From Klenkia marina (GTDB lineage Bacteria > Actinomycetota > Actinomycetes > Mycobacteriales > Geodermatophilaceae): a DNA stretch of 64,000 nucleotides. Below, piece by piece: positions 9,516 to 64,000 of this stretch. The notes beneath the pieces were generated by a model. That model was not told where the DNA came from, searched no databases, and saw nothing but the letters and a program-made list of their open reading frames with translations. The position numbers were made by a program, and so were the translations under genes. The stretch lies in contig NZ_FMUH01000002.1 in the NCBI RefSeq assembly GCF_900101025.1, positions 372,001-436,000 on the forward strand. Reading direction: 5' to 3'. Positions within the stretch are counted from its first letter, which is position 1, and the number at the start of each line of letters is the position of its first letter.

Positions 9516-9701
9516 GACGGCGGCGCTCCTCGTCGGACGGGGGGTGGGCGCCCCAGACTGCCTGCCGCAGGTTGCGGTCAGGTCTCGGCCAGGATGCGCC
9601 CGCGCCGTCACGCCGGGCAACGGGCCACGATCGGGTTGTTGTGGAACGTCGACGTCCTCTGGTTCTGTGGAACCCCTGTGACCTGCGAGGAAGGGTGCGG
9701 C

Positions 9702-56022: not shown

Positions 56023-57036
56023 TCACGTGAGGGCGCGCACCACGGGGTCCCAGGCCTCGAGGGGCACGCCGGTGCCCGGGTAGATGCTGAACCGGTCGAC
56101 CAGGCCGTCGAACCGCTCGCGCAGGGCCGCTCCGGCGTCGTCGGGGTCGGCGACGACGGCGAAGGTGCCCAGCACCTCGTCGTCGACCAGGTCGGCCATC
56201 GCCTGCCACTTGTCCTCGCGGCGGGAGGTCGAGAGCGCGTGCAGCTCGTCGCCCAGCGCGCCCCAGCCGTGCAGCTCGAGCACGGGGCGGTAGGCCGGCG
56301 TCGACCCGTAGAAGGCGATCTGCCCGCGCACGGCGGTCGCGGCGCGGGCGCGTTCGGCGTCGTCCCGACCGCCGACCACGAAGCCGGGCAGGCTGACCTG
56401 CACGTCGGCCCGCGACCGGCCGGCGGCGTCGAGCCCCTCCTGCAGCGCCGGCAGCGTGCGCTCGCGCAGGTAGCGGGCGGTGGTGAACGAGTGGGCGAGC
56501 AGCCCGTCGGCGACCTCGCCGGCCAGCCGGGTCATGAGCGGACCGACGGCGGCCAGGTGCACCGGGGGCGGGCCCCACTCGTGCCGGGCCGGGGTGAACA
56601 TCGGCGTCATCAGGGTGTGCCGGTAGTGCTCGCCGCGGAACCGCAGCGGGACGTCGTCGGTCCAGCTCGCCCAGATCGCCCGCAGCGCGCCGACGTACTC
56701 GCGCATGCGGGCCGCCGGCGCCGACCACGGCATGGAGAACCGCCGCTCGACGTGCGCCTGGATCTGCGTGCCCAGGCCCAGCACGAACCGGCCACGGCCG
56801 TACCGCTGCAGGTCGTAGGCGGTGTAGGCCAGGGTCATCGGCGAGCGGGCGAAGGCCACCGCGATCGCCGAGCCCACCGAGACCCGCGTGGTCGAGAGCG
56901 CGGCGGCGTGCAGCACGAGGAACGGGTCCTGGGCGACCTCGGAGGCCCAGACCCCGGCGTACCCGCGTGCCTCCAGGTCGGCCGCGGTGACCGCCGGGTC
57001 GTCGGCGCTGGTCAGCGACGCGTCGAGCAGCATCAT
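56023..57036 (-). CDS. LLM-class F420-dependent oxidoreductase
   Basis: This 337-residue protein has the bacterial-luciferase-like TIM barrel, with GYAGVWASEVAQDPFL, VGSAIAVAFARSP and RFVLGLGTQIQAHVERRF near residues 28-95, matching the LLM-class F420-dependent group of actinobacteria. Such enzymes transfer hydride from reduced F420 to organic substrates. The ATG at 57036 overlaps the stop of the CoA ligase gene by four bases. It is the second gene of a leftward pair and is presumably co-regulated by the TetR operator at 58606. The substrate is unknown. Confidence 0.85.
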   Translation of the reverse strand: MMLLDASLTSADDPAVTAADLEARGYAGVWASEVAQDPFLVLHAAALSTTRVSVGSAIAVAFARSPMTLAYTAYDLQRYGRGRFVLGLGTQIQAHVERRFSMPWSAPAARMREYVGALRAIWASWTDDVPLRFRGEHYRHTLMTPMFTPARHEWGPPPVHLAAVGPLMTRLAGEVADGLLAHSFTTARYLRERTLPALQEGLDAAGRSRADVQVSLPGFVVGGRDDAERARAATAVRGQIAFYGSTPAYRPVLELHGWGALGDELHALSTSRREDKWQAMADLVDDEVLGTFAVVADPDDAGAALRERFDGLVDRFSIYPGTGVPLEAWDPVVRALT

Positions 57037-58562
57037 CGGTACATCTCGGTGAGCCGGCGCTTGACCAGCTTGCCGGCCGCGCTGCGGGGGAGCTCGGCCT
57101 GGAACTCGATGCGCCGCGGCACCTTGTAGCCGGCCAGCCGCTCGCGGGCGAAGCCGATGAGGTCGGCGGCGAGGTCGGCGGAGGGCTCCACGCCCTCGAC
57201 CGGCTGCACCACGCCCAGCACGGCCTCGCCGAGGTCGTCGTCCGGGACCCCGATCACGGCGACGTCGGCCACCGCCGGGTGCATGACCAGCACGTCCTCG
57301 GCCTCCTGCGGGTACACGTTCACCCCGCCGGAGATGATCATGAAGGCCTTGCGGTCGGTCAGGTAGAGGTAGCCGTCGTCGTCGACCCGGCCGACGTCGC
57401 CGATGGCCGACCAGGTCGGGTGGTCGGGGTGCTGCGCGGCGGCGGTCTTCTCCGGGTCGCCGTGGTAGCTGAAGGGCATGGCGTCGCGCTCGACCCACAC
57501 CGTGCCGATCTCGCCGGCGGGCAGCTCCGCGCCCTCCTCGTCGCAGATGTGCAGCACCCCCAGGGCGGCCTTGCCGACGCTGCCGGGGTGGGCCAGCCAA
57601 TCCTGCGGGCCGATGATCGTGACGCCGTTGCCCTCGGTGGAGGAGTAGTACTCGTTGAGGATCGGCCCCCACCACTCCATCATCTGCTGCTTGACCTCGA
57701 CCGGGCACGGCGCGGCGGCGTGGATGACCACCCGCTGGCTGGAGACGTCGTGGCGCTCGCGGACCTCGGCGGGCAGCTTGAGCATGCGCACGAACATGGT
57801 CGGCACCCATTGGCTGTGCGTGATGCCGTAGCGCTCGATGTGCGCCAGCGCGGTCTCGGCGTCGAACCTCGCGGCCATCACGACCGTGCCGCCCGACCGG
57901 TGCTGCATGCCGCCGAAGCGCAGGGGTGCTGCGTGGTACAGCGGGGCTGCGGAGTAGTAGACGGTGTCGGCGTCGAAGCCGTAGAGCGGGCCGAACACCG
58001 CGGTGAACACGTCGCCGGGCTCGTCGATGCGGTGGGTGGGCAGGTTCGGCAGCACGCCCTTGGGTCGCCCGGTGGTGCCCGAGCTGTAGAGCATGTCGGC
58101 GCCCGACGGCTCGACGGCGGGGCGCTCGGGGCTGGCCGCAGCGATCGCAGCCTCGTAGTCGGCGTACCCCTCGACCGGACCGCCCCAGGCCAGCCGCAGG
58201 CCCAGGTCGGGGCACTGCTGGGCGACGCCGTGGGCCAGCGCGGCGGCCCCCGCCGACACCACGAGCACCTGCGCGCCGCAGTCGCGCACGATGTAGGCGG
58301 CCTCGTCGACGGTCAGGTGGTTGTTGACCCCGGTGACGTAGAGGCCTGAGCGCAGCGCGGCCCAGTAGACCTCGAACACCTCGGGGGTGTTGTCGGCGAT
58401 GAACGCGACGTGGTCCCCCGGGACCAGCCCCTGCGCGCGGAACACGTCGGCGAGGCGGGTGGAGCGCTCGTCGAGCTCGGCGTAGGTGACCACCCGACCG
58501 GTCTCGGCGACGATGATCGCCGCCTTGTCCGGGGTCGTGTCTGCGTACGTGCCGGGGTACAT
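57033..58562 (-). CDS. Acyl-CoA synthetase (FadD-like, AMP-forming)
   Basis: This 509-residue ligase activates a carboxylic acid with ATP and coenzyme A. The AMP-binding motif SSGTTGRPKG is near residue 156, YYSSTEGNG near 302, and the C-terminal KAFMIISGGVNVYPQEAED and KVPRRIEFQAELPRSAAGKL carry the hinge and catalytic lysine. It starts 102 bases from the divergent tetR gene with the 16-bp operator between them. Placed next to an AtuA-like protein and acyl-CoA carboxylase genes, it probably forms the CoA ester that this pathway degrades. Confidence 0.9.
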   Translation of the reverse strand: MYPGTYADTTPDKAAIIVAETGRVVTYAELDERSTRLADVFRAQGLVPGDHVAFIADNTPEVFEVYWAALRSGLYVTGVNNHLTVDEAAYIVRDCGAQVLVVSAGAAALAHGVAQQCPDLGLRLAWGGPVEGYADYEAAIAAASPERPAVEPSGADMLYSSGTTGRPKGVLPNLPTHRIDEPGDVFTAVFGPLYGFDADTVYYSAAPLYHAAPLRFGGMQHRSGGTVVMAARFDAETALAHIERYGITHSQWVPTMFVRMLKLPAEVRERHDVSSQRVVIHAAAPCPVEVKQQMMEWWGPILNEYYSSTEGNGVTIIGPQDWLAHPGSVGKAALGVLHICDEEGAELPAGEIGTVWVERDAMPFSYHGDPEKTAAAQHPDHPTWSAIGDVGRVDDDGYLYLTDRKAFMIISGGVNVYPQEAEDVLVMHPAVADVAVIGVPDDDLGEAVLGVVQPVEGVEPSADLAADLIGFARERLAGYKVPRRIEFQAELPRSAAGKLVKRRLTEMYR

Positions 58563-58605
58563 GGCGACTCCGTCGTCGTCGGGGCGGTGCCCGGATCCTG
58601 GCCCC

Positions 58606-58621
58606 GACCGTCCGTACGGTC
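58606..58621. promoter_or_regulatory. TetR operator, copy 1 (fadD-tetR gap)
   Basis: GACCGTCCGTACGGTC is a 16-bp near-perfect palindrome. The complement of the site at 59373-59388 (GACCGCCCGTACGGTC) matches it at 15 of 16 positions. It lies between the divergent CoA ligase and tetR genes. Confidence 0.75.
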
Positions 58622-58663
58622 AAGACTCCCCGCGGCGCCCGCTGCCCGGTAGCGTGCGCCGAC

Positions 58664-59374
58664 GTGGGTGCACCCATCCGGCGGGAGAGCAGGCGCGACG
58701 ACATCCTCGACGCGTTCACCGCCATGGTGGCCGAGCGGGGCTACGACGGCACCAACTTCGGCGACCTCGCCGCCGGGCTGGGGCTGTCCAAGGGCACGAT
58801 CGTGCACCACTTCGGCACCAAGGAGCAGCTGCTCACCGAGCTGCACGAGACCTACATGCACAGTCGGCTGGCCGAGGTGCGGGTGGTCTGGGACGCCCTG
58901 CCCGGCCCGGCCGAGCGGCTGGCCGCGTTCCTGCACCTCGGGGTGCGGTACCAGGTGGTCGACCGCACGGCGACGATCGCTTTCCAGCGCGAGGTGCGCC
59001 GCTTCGCCGCCGCACCGGGCATGGAGACCTCCCGCGGGCTGCGCGACGAGTACCGCCGGCTGGTGGTGGCCGTGCTGGCCGAGGGCGTGCGCACCGGAGA
59101 CTTCCGGCCCGGCGACGAGCGGCTGCGCACCCTGCAGCTGTTCGGGTCGGTGCACTGGATGTGGACCTGGTTCGACCCGGCCGGGGCCGAGCCGGTGGCC
59201 GCCGTCGCGGCCTCGTTCGTCGACACCTGGCTGGCCGGGGTGCTGGCCGACCCCGCCCGGGCGGGCGGGCTGGCCGACCCGGCGGGCGCGGTCGTCGCGG
59301 TGGTCGAGGAGGCCCTCGCGGCCGGCCGGGCGGTCGGCGCCCTTGACGCCGGGCCGGGCCGCACCGCAAGCTGA
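58664..59374 (+). CDS. TetR family regulator of the acyl-CoA cluster
   Basis: This 236-residue regulator has the TetR DNA-binding domain at residues 8-55, with LAAGLGLSKGTIVHHFGTKEQLL forming helices 2 to 4. The C-terminal domain is of the TetR_C type seen with KstR2-like and fatty acid regulators. It starts at GTG 58664. Identical-type 16-bp operators lie on both of its flanks, one before itself and the CoA ligase, the other before the DinB-like gene, so it most likely represses all three units until an acyl-CoA binds. Confidence 0.9.
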   Translation: MGAPIRRESRRDDILDAFTAMVAERGYDGTNFGDLAAGLGLSKGTIVHHFGTKEQLLTELHETYMHSRLAEVRVVWDALPGPAERLAAFLHLGVRYQVVDRTATIAFQREVRRFAAAPGMETSRGLRDEYRRLVVAVLAEGVRTGDFRPGDERLRTLQLFGSVHWMWTWFDPAGAEPVAAVAASFVDTWLAGVLADPARAGGLADPAGAVVAVVEEALAAGRAVGALDAGPGRTAS

Positions 59375-59388
59375 CCGTACGGGCGGTC
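59373..59388. promoter_or_regulatory. TetR operator, copy 2 (before the AtuA-carboxylase operon)
   Basis: GACCGTACGGGCGGTC differs from the complement of copy 1 by one base. It begins at the last bases of tetR and ends 33 bases before the next gene, GTG 59422, so it can block transcription of the rightward operon. Confidence 0.75.
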
Positions 59389-59421
59389 AGTGTTGACCGC
59401 TCCGGATCGGGAGGGGGCCGG

Positions 59422-60186
59422 GTGTCGCTGCTGGAGGGTCTCCTCGCCGACCTGGACGCCGAGGGCGCTGCGCTGGACGACGTCGTCGCCGGCCTCGACG
59501 ACGCGGGCTGGGCCACCGCCACGCCGGCGGCCGGCTGGACCGTCGCCCACCAGGTCGCCCACCTGGCGTGGACCGACGACGTCGCCGCGCTGGCCGCCAC
59601 CGACCCCGGTGCGTTCCGCGCCGTCCCGGACACCGACGGCGCGGTCGACGAGGCCGCCGCTGCCGGCGCCGCCGCCCCGCCCGCCGAGCTGCTGGCCCGC
59701 TGGCGGGCCTCCCGCACCGCACTGGCCACCGCCCTCGCCGGGGTCGCGCCGGGGGCGAAGCTGCCCTGGTTCGGCCCGCCGATGAGCGCGGCGTCGATGG
59801 CCACCGCCCGGTTGATGGAGACCTGGGCGCACGGCGTCGACGTCACCGACGCCCTGGGGCTGCCGGCCTCGTCGACCGACCGGCTCCGGGCGGTCGCGCA
59901 CCTGGGGGTGGTCACCCGCGGCTTCGCCTTCGGCCAGCACGGGCTCCCCGCCCCCGCCGACGACGTCCGCGTCGAGCTGGCCGCGCCCTCGGGCGAGGTG
60001 TGGACCTGGGGCGCGGCCGACGCCGCCGACCGGGTGACCGGGCCCGCCCTGGACTTCTGCCTGCGGGTCACGCAACGGCGCCCCCGCGCCGCGCTCGCGC
60101 TGAGCGCCACCGGGGCGACCGCCGACCGCTGGCTCGACGTCGCGCAGGCCTTCGCCGGGCGCCCCGGCGCCAGGAGCGGGGCGTGA
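59422..60186 (+). CDS. TIGR03084 / maleylpyruvate isomerase-like DinB-fold protein
   Basis: This 254-residue protein matches the mycothiol-dependent maleylpyruvate isomerase/DinB-like group (TIGR03084 type). The N-terminal helical domain has TPAAGWTVAHQVAHLAWTDD with the first metal histidine, MATARLMETWAHGVDV supplies the third-helix HGxD motif, and RVTGPALDFCLRVTQRR marks the C-terminal domain. Metal and possibly mycothiol binding are known for relatives; the reaction here is unknown. It begins with GTG and overlaps the AtuA-like gene by four bases, so it belongs to that operon. Confidence 0.82.
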   Translation: MSLLEGLLADLDAEGAALDDVVAGLDDAGWATATPAAGWTVAHQVAHLAWTDDVAALAATDPGAFRAVPDTDGAVDEAAAAGAAAPPAELLARWRASRTALATALAGVAPGAKLPWFGPPMSAASMATARLMETWAHGVDVTDALGLPASSTDRLRAVAHLGVVTRGFAFGQHGLPAPADDVRVELAAPSGEVWTWGAADAADRVTGPALDFCLRVTQRRPRAALALSATGATADRWLDVAQAFAGRPGARSGA

Positions 60187-61904
60187 GCGCGCCCCTGCGG
60201 ATCGGCAACGCGTCGGGCTTCTACGGCGACCGGCGGGCCGCCGTGCGGGAGATGCTCGAGGGCGGGCCGCTCGACGTCCTCACCGGTGACTACCTGGCCG
60301 AGCTCACCATGCTCATCCTCGGCCGCGACCGGGCGAAGGACCCCGCCCGCGGGTACGCCCGCACCTTCCTGGCCCAGCTCGAGGAGTGCCTGGGCCTGGC
60401 CCACGACCGCGGGGTGCGCTTCGTGGTCAACGCCGGCGGCACCAACCCGGCCGGGCTCGCCGAGGCGGTGCGCACGCTGGCCGACCGGCTGGGCCTGCCC
60501 ACCGTGGTGGCCCACGTCGAGGGCGACGACCTGCTGCCCCGCGCCGCCGAGCTGGGCTTCGGCGAGCCGATCACCGCGAACGCCTACCTGGGCGGCTTCG
60601 GCATCGCCGCGTGCCTGCGGGCCGGCGCCGACGTCGTGGTCACCGGGCGGGTCACCGACGCCTCGCTGGTGGTCGGGCCGGGCATCGCGCACTTCGGCTG
60701 GGGCCGCGACGACCTCGACGCGGTCGCCGGGGCGATGGCCGTGGGCCACGTGCTCGAGTGCGGCACCCAGGCCACCGGCGGCAACCTCTCGTGCTTCGCC
60801 GAGCACCCGGTCGAGCAGCTGCTGCACCCCGGCTTCCCGCTCGCCGAGCTGCACGCCGACGGGTCGGCCGTCATCACCAAGCACCCGGGCACCGGCGGCG
60901 TCGTCGACGTCGACACCGTCACCGCCCAGCTGCTCTACGAGATCACCGGCGCCCGCTACGCCGGCCCCGACGCGGTGGCCCGCTTCGACACGGTGCGGCT
61001 GACCCTCGACGGCCCGGACCGGGTGCGGCTGTCCGGCGTGCGCGGCGAGCCGCCGCCGCCGGACGCGAAGGTGTGCCTCAACGCCCTGGGCGGGCACCGC
61101 AACGAGGTCACCTTCGTGCTCACCGGCGACCGGGTCGGGGCCAAGGCGGCGCTGGCCCGCGCCCAGTTCGAGGCCGCGCTCGACCCGCGCCCGGCCGAGC
61201 TGGTGTGGTCGACCGTCGGGGTGCAGCGCCCCGACGCCGACACCGAGGCCGGCGCCAGTGTGCTGCTGCGGGCCCAGGCCACCGACCCCCGCGCCGAGGT
61301 GGTGGGCCGGGCCTTCTCCGGCGCCGCGGTCGAGATGGCGCTGGCCTCCTACCCCGGCTTCCACCTCACCGCGCCGCCCGGCGGCGGCTCGGCCTACGGC
61401 GTCTACACCCCCGCCTACGTCCCGCAGACCACCGTCCCGCACGTCGCCGTCCTGCCCGACGGCACGCGCGTCGACGTCCCGGCCCCCGCGGTGACCTCCC
61501 CGCTCGCCGACCTGCCCGTCCCCCCGCCGGCTCCGGCGGCTCCCGGCCCGACGCGGCGGGCGCCGCTGGGCGCGGTCGCCCGGGCCCGCAGCGGCGACAA
61601 GGGCGGTACGGCGAACATCGGGCTGTGGGCCACCACCGACGAGGGTGCCGCGTGGTTGGCCGCCGCGATCACCCCGGACACCGTGCGCGCTCTGCTGCCC
61701 GAGGCCGCGGACCTGCCGGTGACCGTGCACCCGCTGCCGAACCTGCGGGCCGTCGACGTCGTCGTCGAGGGCCTGCTCGGCCAGGGGGTCGCTGCCAGCA
61801 CCCGCTTCGACCCGCAGGGCAAGGCCGTGGGCGAGTGGCTGCTCGGCCGGACGCTCGAGATCCCGCTGCGGCTGCTGCCGCCCGACGACGGAGCCCTGCC
61901 GTGA
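60183..61904 (+). CDS. AtuA-like acyclic terpene utilization family protein (DUF1446)
   Basis: This 573-residue protein joins a DUF1446 domain (about residues 5-440, with GNASGFYGDR, GGTNPAGLAEA and ECGTQATGGN) to a C-terminal AtuA-like domain with RARSGDKGGTANIGLWA near residue 470. AtuA is encoded with the geranyl-CoA carboxylase system of Pseudomonas and is needed for acyclic terpene or leucine-type degradation, but its reaction is unknown. Here it is followed directly by biotin-dependent carboxylase subunits, the same association. Start and stop overlap its neighbours (GTGA on both sides), showing strong coupling. Confidence 0.85.
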   Translation: MSAPLRIGNASGFYGDRRAAVREMLEGGPLDVLTGDYLAELTMLILGRDRAKDPARGYARTFLAQLEECLGLAHDRGVRFVVNAGGTNPAGLAEAVRTLADRLGLPTVVAHVEGDDLLPRAAELGFGEPITANAYLGGFGIAACLRAGADVVVTGRVTDASLVVGPGIAHFGWGRDDLDAVAGAMAVGHVLECGTQATGGNLSCFAEHPVEQLLHPGFPLAELHADGSAVITKHPGTGGVVDVDTVTAQLLYEITGARYAGPDAVARFDTVRLTLDGPDRVRLSGVRGEPPPPDAKVCLNALGGHRNEVTFVLTGDRVGAKAALARAQFEAALDPRPAELVWSTVGVQRPDADTEAGASVLLRAQATDPRAEVVGRAFSGAAVEMALASYPGFHLTAPPGGGSAYGVYTPAYVPQTTVPHVAVLPDGTRVDVPAPAVTSPLADLPVPPPAPAAPGPTRRAPLGAVARARSGDKGGTANIGLWATTDEGAAWLAAAITPDTVRALLPEAADLPVTVHPLPNLRAVDVVVEGLLGQGVAASTRFDPQGKAVGEWLLGRTLEIPLRLLPPDDGALP

Positions 61905-63514
61905 CCGTGTTCCGCTCCACCCTGGACACCTCGGGCGAGCAGTTCGCCGCCAACCGCACCGCCGTGCTGGCCGCGCTCGCCGAGCTGGACGCCGACCACG
62001 CCCGAGCGGTGGCCGGCGGCGGCGAGAAGGCCGTCGCCCGGCACCGCGCCCGCGGCAAGCTGACCGCCCGCGAGCGCATCGAGCTGCTGGTCGACCCCGA
62101 CAGCCCGTTCCTCGAGCTCTCGCCGCTGGCGGCCTGGGGCACCGACTTCACCGTCGGCGCCAGCGTGGTCACCGGGGTCGGGGTCGTCGAGGGCGTCGAG
62201 TGCGTGCTCGTCGCGCACGACCCCACGGTGCGCGGCGGCTCGAGCAACCCGTGGACGCTGAAGAAGACCCTGCGCGCCATGCAGGTCGCCCGGGAGAACC
62301 GGCTGCCGCTGGTCAGCCTCGTCGAGTCCGGCGGCGCCGACCTGCCCACCCAGAAGGACATCTTCATCCCGGGCGGGCAGCTGTTCCGCGACCTCACCCG
62401 GCTGTCGGCCGCGGGCATCCCGACGATCGCGATCGTGTTCGGCAACTCCACCGCCGGCGGGGCCTACGTGCCCGGCATGAGCGACCACGTGGTGATGGTC
62501 GACGGCGGGGCCAAGGTGTTCCTCGGCGGTCCGCCGCTGGTGAGGATGGCCACCGGCGAGGTCGCCGACGAGGAGTCCCTGGGCGGTGCCGCGATGCACG
62601 GGCGGGTCTCGGGGCTGGCCGACCACGTCGCCGTCGACGAGGTGGACGCGCTGCGGATCGGGCGGCGCATCGTGGCCCGGCTGAACCGGCGCAAGCGCGG
62701 GCCGGCGCCCGCGGCCGTCGTCCCCCCGCGGTACGGCGAGGACGACCTGCTGGGCGTCGTCGGCACCGACCTCTCGCAGCCCTTCGACCCCCGCGAGGTG
62801 CTCGCCCGGGTCGTCGACGACTCCGACCTCGACGAGGTCAAGCCGCGCTACGGCCCGTCGCTGGTCACCGCCTGGGCGCGCATCCACGGCCACCCGGTGG
62901 GCGTGCTGGCCAATGCCCAGGGCGTGCTGTTCGGCGCCGAGGCGCAGAAGGCCACCCAGTTCATCCAGCTGGCCAACGCCGCCGACACCCCGCTGGTCTT
63001 CCTGCACAACACCACCGGCTACATGGTCGGCCGTGAGTACGAGCAGAGCGGGATCATCAAGCACGGCGCGATGATGATCAACGCCGTCTCCAACAGCCGG
63101 GTGCCGCACCTGTCGGTGCTGCTGGGCGCCTCCTACGGCGCCGGGCACTACGGCATGTGCGGGCGGGCCTACGACCCGCGGTTCCTGTTCGCCTGGCCGA
63201 CGGCGAAGTCCGCCGTCATGGGCCCGGCCCAGCTCGCCGGCGTGCTCTCGATCGTCGCCCGGGCCTCGGCCGAGGCCCGCGGCACCCCGTTCGACGAGGA
63301 CGGCGACGCGGCCATGCGCGCCGCCGTCGAGGCCCAGATCGAGGCGGAGTCGATGCCCCGGTTCCTGTCCGGCCGGGTCTACGACGACGGGATCATCGAC
63401 CCGCGCGACACCCGCACGGTGCTCGGCCTGTGCCTGAGCGCGATCGCCAGCGGCGAGGTCGCGGGCACGGGCGCCGGCCACGGCACCCCCGCCTACGGGG
63501 TGTTCCGCCCGTGA
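61901..63514 (+). CDS. Acyl-CoA carboxylase beta subunit (carboxyltransferase)
   Basis: This 537-residue carboxyltransferase moves carboxyl from biotin to an acyl-CoA. Family motifs include [38 protein letters not shown] and, in the second half, [24 protein letters not shown] with the oxyanion-forming [16 protein letters not shown]. It is of the methylcrotonyl/geranyl-CoA (AccD3/AtuC) kind rather than acetyl/propionyl type, judging from [16 protein letters not shown]. It overlaps the alpha subunit gene by four bases. Confidence 0.9.
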
Positions 63515-64000
63515 GCGTCACCCGCGTGCTGGTGGCCAACCGGGGCGAGATCGCGCGGCGGGTGTTCCGCACCTGCCGCGACCTGGGCATCGGCACGGTC
63601 GCGGTCTACAGCGACCCGGACGCCGGCAGCCCGCACCGCGCCGAGGCCGACCGCGCCGTGCGGCTGCCCGGGGCGGCGCCGGCCGACACCTACCTGCGCG
63701 CCGACCTGCTGATCGCCGCGGCGAGGGCGTCGGGCGCCGACGCGGTGCACCCGGGCTACGGGTTCCTGTCCGAGGACGCCGGGTTCGCCCGTGCGGTGCT
63801 CGACGCCGGGCTGACCTGGATCGGGCCGCCGCCGGCCGCGATCGACGCCATGGGCTCCAAGATCGCCGCCAAGGAGCTGATGGCCGCCGCGGGTGTGCCC
63901 GTGCTCCAGCTGGACGACGTCACCGAGGCCGACCTCCCGGTGCTGGTCAAGGCCTCGGCGGGCGGCGGCGGCCGCGGCATGCGCATCGTGCGCGCGCTGG
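63511..64000 (+). CDS. Acyl-CoA carboxylase alpha subunit (biotin carboxylase), partial
   Basis: The first 163 residues of a biotin carboxylase lie in the window; the gene runs off the right edge. The biotin carboxylase N-domain has [31 protein letters not shown] and [17 protein letters not shown], and the ATP-grasp glycine-rich loop [13 protein letters not shown] is near residue 150. The GTG start overlaps the beta subunit stop. The biotin attachment domain is expected beyond the edge. With the beta subunit it makes the carboxylase of the AtuA-type pathway. Confidence 0.92.

Follow-up and report, generated by a model that had tools for sequence, protein, structure and literature searches.

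We analyzed a gene cluster built around AtuA near the right end of a window of 64,000 nucleotides from Klenkia marina (contig NZ_FMUH01000002.1, positions 372,001 to 436,000, C8:372001-436000 in our numbering of the 4.2-Mb genome). A sequence-only reading had placed there a CoA ligase, an F420-type enzyme, a DinB-like protein, AtuA and an acyl-CoA carboxylase as members of a possible unrecognized degradation pathway. All of these genes were found at that place. The features of the cluster are as follows.

56023..57036, minus strand: TIGR03617 LLM-class F420-type oxidoreductase (466.5 bits, cut-off 278.15), second gene of the minus-strand unit
57033..58562, minus strand: acyl-CoA ligase FadD (PF00501, AMP-binding, and PF13193, C-terminal), first gene of the minus-strand unit
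58605..58622, minus strand: operator-like palindrome with 1 mismatch, between the FadD and TetR genes
58664..59374, plus strand: TetR-family regulator (TetR_N and TetR_C_24)
59372..59389, plus strand: operator-like palindrome with 0 mismatches, across the TetR stop codon and ahead of the TIGR03084 gene
59422..60186, plus strand: TIGR03084 protein (332.8 bits, cut-off 247.95; MDMPI_N/DinB_2), with the predicted fold of a mycothiol-dependent maleylpyruvate isomerase
60183..61904, plus strand: AtuA (PF07287 and PF23544), a predicted acetate-releasing lyase of the citramalate-lyase type; GTGA overlap with the TIGR03084 gene
61901..63514, plus strand: carboxyltransferase (beta) subunit with a pocket of the geranyl-CoA-carboxylase type (Gly158, no insertion); GTGA overlap
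63511..64000 (window end), gene continuing to 65442, plus strand: biotin carboxylase (alpha) subunit; GTGA overlap
65439-66596, beyond the window, plus strand: acyl-CoA dehydrogenase; ATGA overlap with the biotin carboxylase gene

Gene junctions and the shared palindrome

The genes from TIGR03084 onward overlap at their junctions, with GTGA at 60183, 61901 and 63511 and ATGA at 65439. On the minus strand the FadD and LLM genes share an ATGA as well, if the upstream one of two ATG codons is the LLM start. Since start and stop codons overlap at these junctions, translational coupling of the cluster genes is likely; the overlapping codons by which AtuA had been said to be coupled to the DinB-fold protein and the carboxylase are indeed present. 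To the right of position 64000 an acyl-CoA dehydrogenase and an enoyl-CoA hydratase had been expected. The dehydrogenase was there, but the next gene to the right was no hydratase, and no crotonase was recognized adjoining the cluster. No alcohol or aldehyde dehydrogenase genes of the AtuB/AtuG kind were recognized among the open reading frames, though no search was aimed at them, and a scan for promoters and terminators produced 0 promoters and 2 terminator-like sites, each within a gene.

Copies of the palindrome TGACCGTACGGNCGGTCA flank the TetR gene, at 59372-59389 (plus strand, 0 mismatches) and at 58605-58622 (minus strand, 1 mismatch). A whole-genome pattern scan with 0-1 mismatch returned these two sites alone in the 4.2 Mb. 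When up to 3 mismatches were allowed, there were 34 forward and 30 reverse matches genome-wide, compared to 5 and 9 for the reversed pattern; in this GC-rich genome the looser palindrome is thus frequent. The perfect copy begins on the TetR stop codon (59372-59374), overlapping the end of the regulator gene.

Among nine genomes of the genus, an orthologue of this TetR was found, besides the window, in G150 (84%) and G153 (90%), while G064 had a 27% match. Both G150 and G153 carry a perfect site ahead of TIGR03084 and a 2-mismatch site at the other side of TetR, and the operator-like palindrome is well supported by this recurrence. G064 and G120 have the cluster but neither this TetR nor the exact operator; looser TGACC-N6/8-GGTCA palindromes stand there instead. 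Control by this putative repressor is therefore not general across the genus. An operator common to the CoA ligase/F420 unit and the AtuA unit, as had been proposed earlier, is real as a sequence, with the palindrome pair flanking TetR, and we infer that TetR would repress both units.

Conservation of the AtuA core

Contigs were scanned with an alignment of AtuA, and 589 of the 591 pattern matches were confirmed. The best 80 of these 589, called named loci below, consist of the nearest relatives and form a biased sample; the counts given for them use the loci with enough flank. Among 150 genomes drawn from the order, 90 had the PF07287 domain.

Of the 73 named loci with 5 kb or more downstream, 72 had a carboxyltransferase after AtuA. 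A biotin carboxylase followed in 71 of 72, and in 71 of 72 a close acyl-CoA dehydrogenase came after the carboxylase. In 61 of 73 there was also a second dehydrogenase ahead of the carboxylase; a crotonase was linked in 56 of 72 and TIGR03084 preceded AtuA in 25 of 74. The exceptions among the named loci were L096, without the carboxylase, and L100 (Myxococcus), without the close dehydrogenase. L096, from the Mycobacterium metagenome-assembled genome WOFB04, links AtuA to two dehydrogenases and a crotonase, and the carboxylase genes are absent between them. A second set of 40 chosen loci was more varied, and several of these had no carboxylase near AtuA. We also observed that in two loci of the same genus (L203 in G150 and L204 in G153) an extra acyl-CoA dehydrogenase lies between AtuA and the carboxyltransferase, a gene that the window does not have at that place.

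Judged by these gene orders, the core of AtuA, carboxylase and dehydrogenase is widespread. The recurrence of the same palindrome in both TetR-carrying relatives, together with the regular position of the carboxyltransferase after AtuA, makes the arrangement more than chance, and from this comparison we consider that the gene set is real and co-regulated, under joint control.

Predicted roles of individual proteins

The pocket of the carboxyltransferase bears on the substrate. The beta subunit of methylcrotonyl-CoA carboxylase (MCC) has Phe191 after a 3-residue insertion, while that of geranyl-CoA carboxylase (GCC) has Gly there without an insertion; exchanging this residue shifts the substrate preference of the MCC and GCC beta subunits (PMC4673880; papers are cited here by PMC number, each as represented by an excerpt). 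The window protein reads IFIPGG; its alignment to GCC beta (5ikl) is gap-free, while that to MCC beta needs a gap of 3 residues. In the pocket segment the protein is nearer to GCC, with 147.7 compared to 132.5 bits for MCC. Gly with no insertion was found in all 73 AtuA-linked carboxyltransferases of the named loci that cover the site. In the second locus set, 27 alignments gave 19 cases of Gly and 5 of Ala without insertion and 3 of Ser, two of them with insertions; one of the Ser-bearing proteins, that of L181, is a remote paralogue.

The host genome also has a separate cluster, L011 (G000:C5:4273-10555), with an MCC-type carboxyltransferase, a biotin carboxylase and a dehydrogenase, and the carboxyltransferase of that cluster does have the 3-residue insertion. 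In L011 an opposite-strand open reading frame, ferritin-like by eye, lies between the two carboxylase genes, and a CofH-model match lies about 4 kb beyond the cluster. The identity of the window enzyme as MCC or propionyl-CoA carboxylase (PCC) was rejected on the pocket residues and on this separate MCC-type cluster. The sequence-only reading had named an ordinary PCC or MCC as part of the outcome that would refute it; the pocket, with Gly, no insertion and no Phe, is of a different kind. Because MCC still scores higher over the full length, what we claim is a geranyl-type pocket and not orthology to GCC. The N-terminal extension of GCC beta, not found in PCC beta according to the excerpt (PMC4673880), gave a mixed picture. 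The alignment of the window subunit starts at residue 3 with GCC, at 6 with one MCC and later with most PCCs; the PCC-named 9tps aligns from residue 6, and MCC AccD1 (4q0g) only from 25.

In the acyl-CoA dehydrogenase, Glu243 aligns with the Glu of the GLDYERVV stretch in isovaleryl-CoA dehydrogenase 4kto, and the other four PDB sequences aligned have no Glu at this position. All 71 of the close linked dehydrogenases share this Glu, and close to the C-terminus their sequence is IAP or VAP. We take this position to be that of the catalytic Glu of isovaleryl-type enzymes, with the usual C-terminal Glu presumably missing.

Both domains of AtuA matched over curated cut-offs, PF07287 with 487.3 bits (cut-off 22.8) and PF23544 with 67.7 bits (cut-off 27). 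The protein by itself had no match among PDB sequences. The predicted structure (mean pLDDT 84.9), on the other hand, aligned to chain A of 9evf over 494 columns with E 3.2e-17 and TM scores of 0.52/0.64, the sole PDB match of the model with E <= 0.001. Chain B of 9evf (105 residues) matched with TMt 0.70 and E 0.17; it presumably aligned to the C-terminal domain. The PDB names of 9erq/9evf are 'Acyclic terpene utilization AtuA family protein' and 'Citramalate lyase, subunit A (cmlA)', and the entry is titled 'Citramalate lyase - ADP - pyruvate complex'. A literature search, which had most subscription journals outside its reach, found no paper on the 9evf enzyme.

We take DUF1446 to be the older name of the AtuA domain. 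A DUF1446 gene, listed with function unknown, adjoins methylaspartate ammonia-lyase (PMC4682846), and a citramalate lyase would suit that position. AtuA was proposed earlier as an acetate lyase (PMC4847356, PMC9973270), and the AtuA-like ThnQS was reported, from unpublished data in a 2025 review, as a lyase that cleaves a tertiary alcohol (PMC12016498). The statement that AtuA proteins have no known reaction, made in the sequence-only reading, has to be given up in view of these reports and of the AtuA-family citramalate lyase in the PDB. Window AtuA shares with citramalate lyase and ThnQS the predicted large-subunit fold and the proposed cleavage at a tertiary alcohol beside CH2-COO-. Unlike them, it is one chain with both domains, its CoA-ester substrate is assumed and its identity to 9evf is 15%. 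From the predicted fold match to 9evf and the cleavage reported for ThnQS, AtuA is probably an acetate-releasing lyase that would act after carboxylation and hydration. In L152 (G083), near 9599, AtuA seems to be split into two adjacent frames, a large part and the C-terminal domain, like the two-chain citramalate lyase. A split as a sign of two subunits was rejected, with L152 the one clean case and L148 more like a frameshift.

For the predicted model of the TIGR03084 protein, the best PDB matches were 2nsg/2nsf (E 1.5e-8 and 4.5e-8). The fold is that of mycothiol-dependent maleylpyruvate isomerase over both domains; unlike that system, the identity is 19-20% and no maleylpyruvate pathway gene was recognized in the cluster. 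His47, Glu133 and His137 are invariant in 54 of 54 homologues and are presumably the metal ligands. The host has a mycothiol gene (MshA-model match over the cut-off). A viral fold search with the protein gave no match at E <= 0.001. As a stand-in for the missing hydratase, TIGR03084 was considered and rejected. A crotonase was linked in 14 of 26 named loci with TIGR03084 compared to 40 of 44 without it (Fisher p 0.00076, with rows that are not independent), and this association is confounded by Amycolatopsis: 9 of the 12 TIGR03084 loci without a linked crotonase belong to this genus and have a crotonase of 29-34% nearby on the opposite strand.

For the F420-type LLM enzyme, the host has an F420 gene (CofH-model match over the cut-off). 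No LLM match was found in any of the 80 named loci; flanks of 4 kb or more were available upstream in 69 of them and on both sides in 66. Four genomes of the genus, G064, G120, G150 and G153, do have the LLM gene together with AtuA, and in L150, from another family, it lies next to AtuA. At the same chromosomal place in relatives, as judged by shared neighbor peptides, we found LLM alone in G078, LLM with TIGR03084 in G071, and LLM with FadD and a dehydrogenase in G106, without AtuA or carboxylase there. The enzyme as an obligatory partner of AtuA was rejected on these grounds; it appears to be a lineage-restricted accessory gene under the same regulator. In L171 (G101), the genes for TIGR03084 and a TIGR03617 enzyme are neighbors on the same strand; AtuA has no match within the 18 kb, and the two proteins may form a partnership apart from it. 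The same literature search found a function for neither family.

A candidate pathway, its rivals and its known relatives

We consider it fairly probable, by analogy to the Pseudomonas Atu pathway, that the cluster serves the breakdown of 3-methyl-branched, isoprenoid-like acids under the control of a repressor. FadD would form the CoA ester of the acid, and the isovaleryl-type dehydrogenase would yield a 3-methyl-2-enoyl-CoA. The GCC-like carboxylase would put CO2 on the 3-methyl group, and a hydratase encoded elsewhere would add water to give a 3-hydroxy-3-alkylglutaryl-CoA. AtuA, acting as a lyase of the citramalate-lyase type, would then cut the tertiary alcohol into acetate and a 3-oxoacyl-CoA able to enter beta-oxidation. 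The TIGR03084 protein may set the geometry of the C=C bond, and the F420-type enzyme may contribute an accessory redox reaction, perhaps the oxidation of an alcohol or aldehyde ahead of FadD. We infer each of these reactions in K. marina, as well as the substrate. The isoprenoid or branched-acid route of the sequence-only reading is thus kept as the best fit, with a pocket that is neither ordinary PCC nor MCC, while the F420 enzyme as its defining part is weakened.

The cluster resembles the Pseudomonas atu cluster in AtuA, in the two-subunit carboxylase with the geranyl-type pocket, in the acyl-CoA dehydrogenase and acyl-CoA ligase, and in a repressor with paired inverted repeats. It differs by having no adjoining hydratase (AtuE), by the addition of TIGR03084 and the F420-type LLM, and by an operator sequence unlike the AtuR site quoted in the excerpt of PMC9973270.

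Several observations weigh against the branched-acid pathway. The full-length PDB score is higher for MCC beta (522 bits) than for GCC (466 bits), and Glu stands at the Glu243 position in 58 of 58 second linked dehydrogenases as well, so it is not a specific marker. The best genomic homologue of the cluster-type crotonase has 48% identity and lies on another contig (C5). The 15% identity of AtuA to 9evf is low, and a profile of ten AtuA relatives matched 9erq/9evf weakly (E 0.0066). The host has an HMG-CoA lyase gene over the cut-off, and in Pseudomonas LiuE is also credited, by the title of one cited reference, with the long-chain lyase step. Finally, G113 keeps LLM, TIGR03084 and a dehydrogenase at the same place with no AtuA match in the genome, and its retained genes can have another use.

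Carboxylase and AtuA could also act as proposed on another 3-branched or cyclic acyl-CoA, such as a methyl-branched lipid or a ring fragment, rather than on an isoprenoid. In its favor, the reported substrate of ThnQS is a tertiary alcohol derived from cyclohexane (PMC12016498), the atu-like dmgA-H cluster of Pseudomonas was tied to degradation of the DSF (diffusible signal factor) fatty-acid signal (PMC9973270), and induction of the mycobacterial operon by hypoxia and in stationary phase has been reported (PMC9283954). The pocket type, however, admits geranyl-CoA (PMC4673880), though an open pocket may take other chains, and we regard such a substrate as unlikely.

Alternatively, it may be an accident of descent that two units have one promoter region in common, with LLM, FadD, TIGR03084 and the dehydrogenase serving one function and AtuA with the carboxylase another. 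G078, G071, G113 and G106 keep subsets of the LLM side at the same site without AtuA or carboxylase there, as this would predict. Yet G071 and G106 hold a second AtuA-carboxylase cluster elsewhere, one palindrome faces both units in the window, and the named loci join the dehydrogenase to the carboxylase (71 of 72) and TIGR03084 to AtuA (25 of 74), which makes such a division quite improbable. An ordinary leucine/isovalerate cluster with MCC or PCC, which the top full-length score for MCC beta and the isovaleryl-type dehydrogenase would suit, is very hard to reconcile with the pocket, with the host's other, MCC-type carboxylase cluster with its dehydrogenase, and with the wild-type growth on isovalerate of an M. 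smegmatis accD2-accA2 deletion (PMC4347857).

The cluster has a counterpart in the mycobacterial accA2-accD2 operon, whose AtuA member is presumably Rv0976c. The operon Rv0971c-Rv0976c is described with echA7, fadE12, accA2, accD2 and fadE13 (PMC9283954), and its AccD2 differs from MCC in the pocket segment (PMC4347857). AtuA, carboxyltransferase, biotin carboxylase and dehydrogenase come in the same order as in the window, and the mycobacterial loci examined have the same pocket motif. In 30 of 33 listed mycobacterial loci we found AtuA, dehydrogenase, carboxyltransferase, biotin carboxylase, dehydrogenase and crotonase; the exceptions were L056 and L068, without the crotonase, and L096. Unlike the window, these 30 loci add a second dehydrogenase and a linked crotonase, and mycobacterial loci come without linked TIGR03084 and LLM. 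The literature search found no description of this actinobacterial pathway. Unrecognized is a fair description of the corresponding mycobacterial operon: a 2015 paper left its role open (PMC4347857), and in 2022 it was still described as undetermined (PMC9283954), as far as the excerpts go.

One testable pathway would join the reaction of AtuA, the function of TIGR03084 and the purpose of a conserved operon of the accA2-accD2 type, and the pocket and fold results point to concrete substrates and to a concrete reaction.

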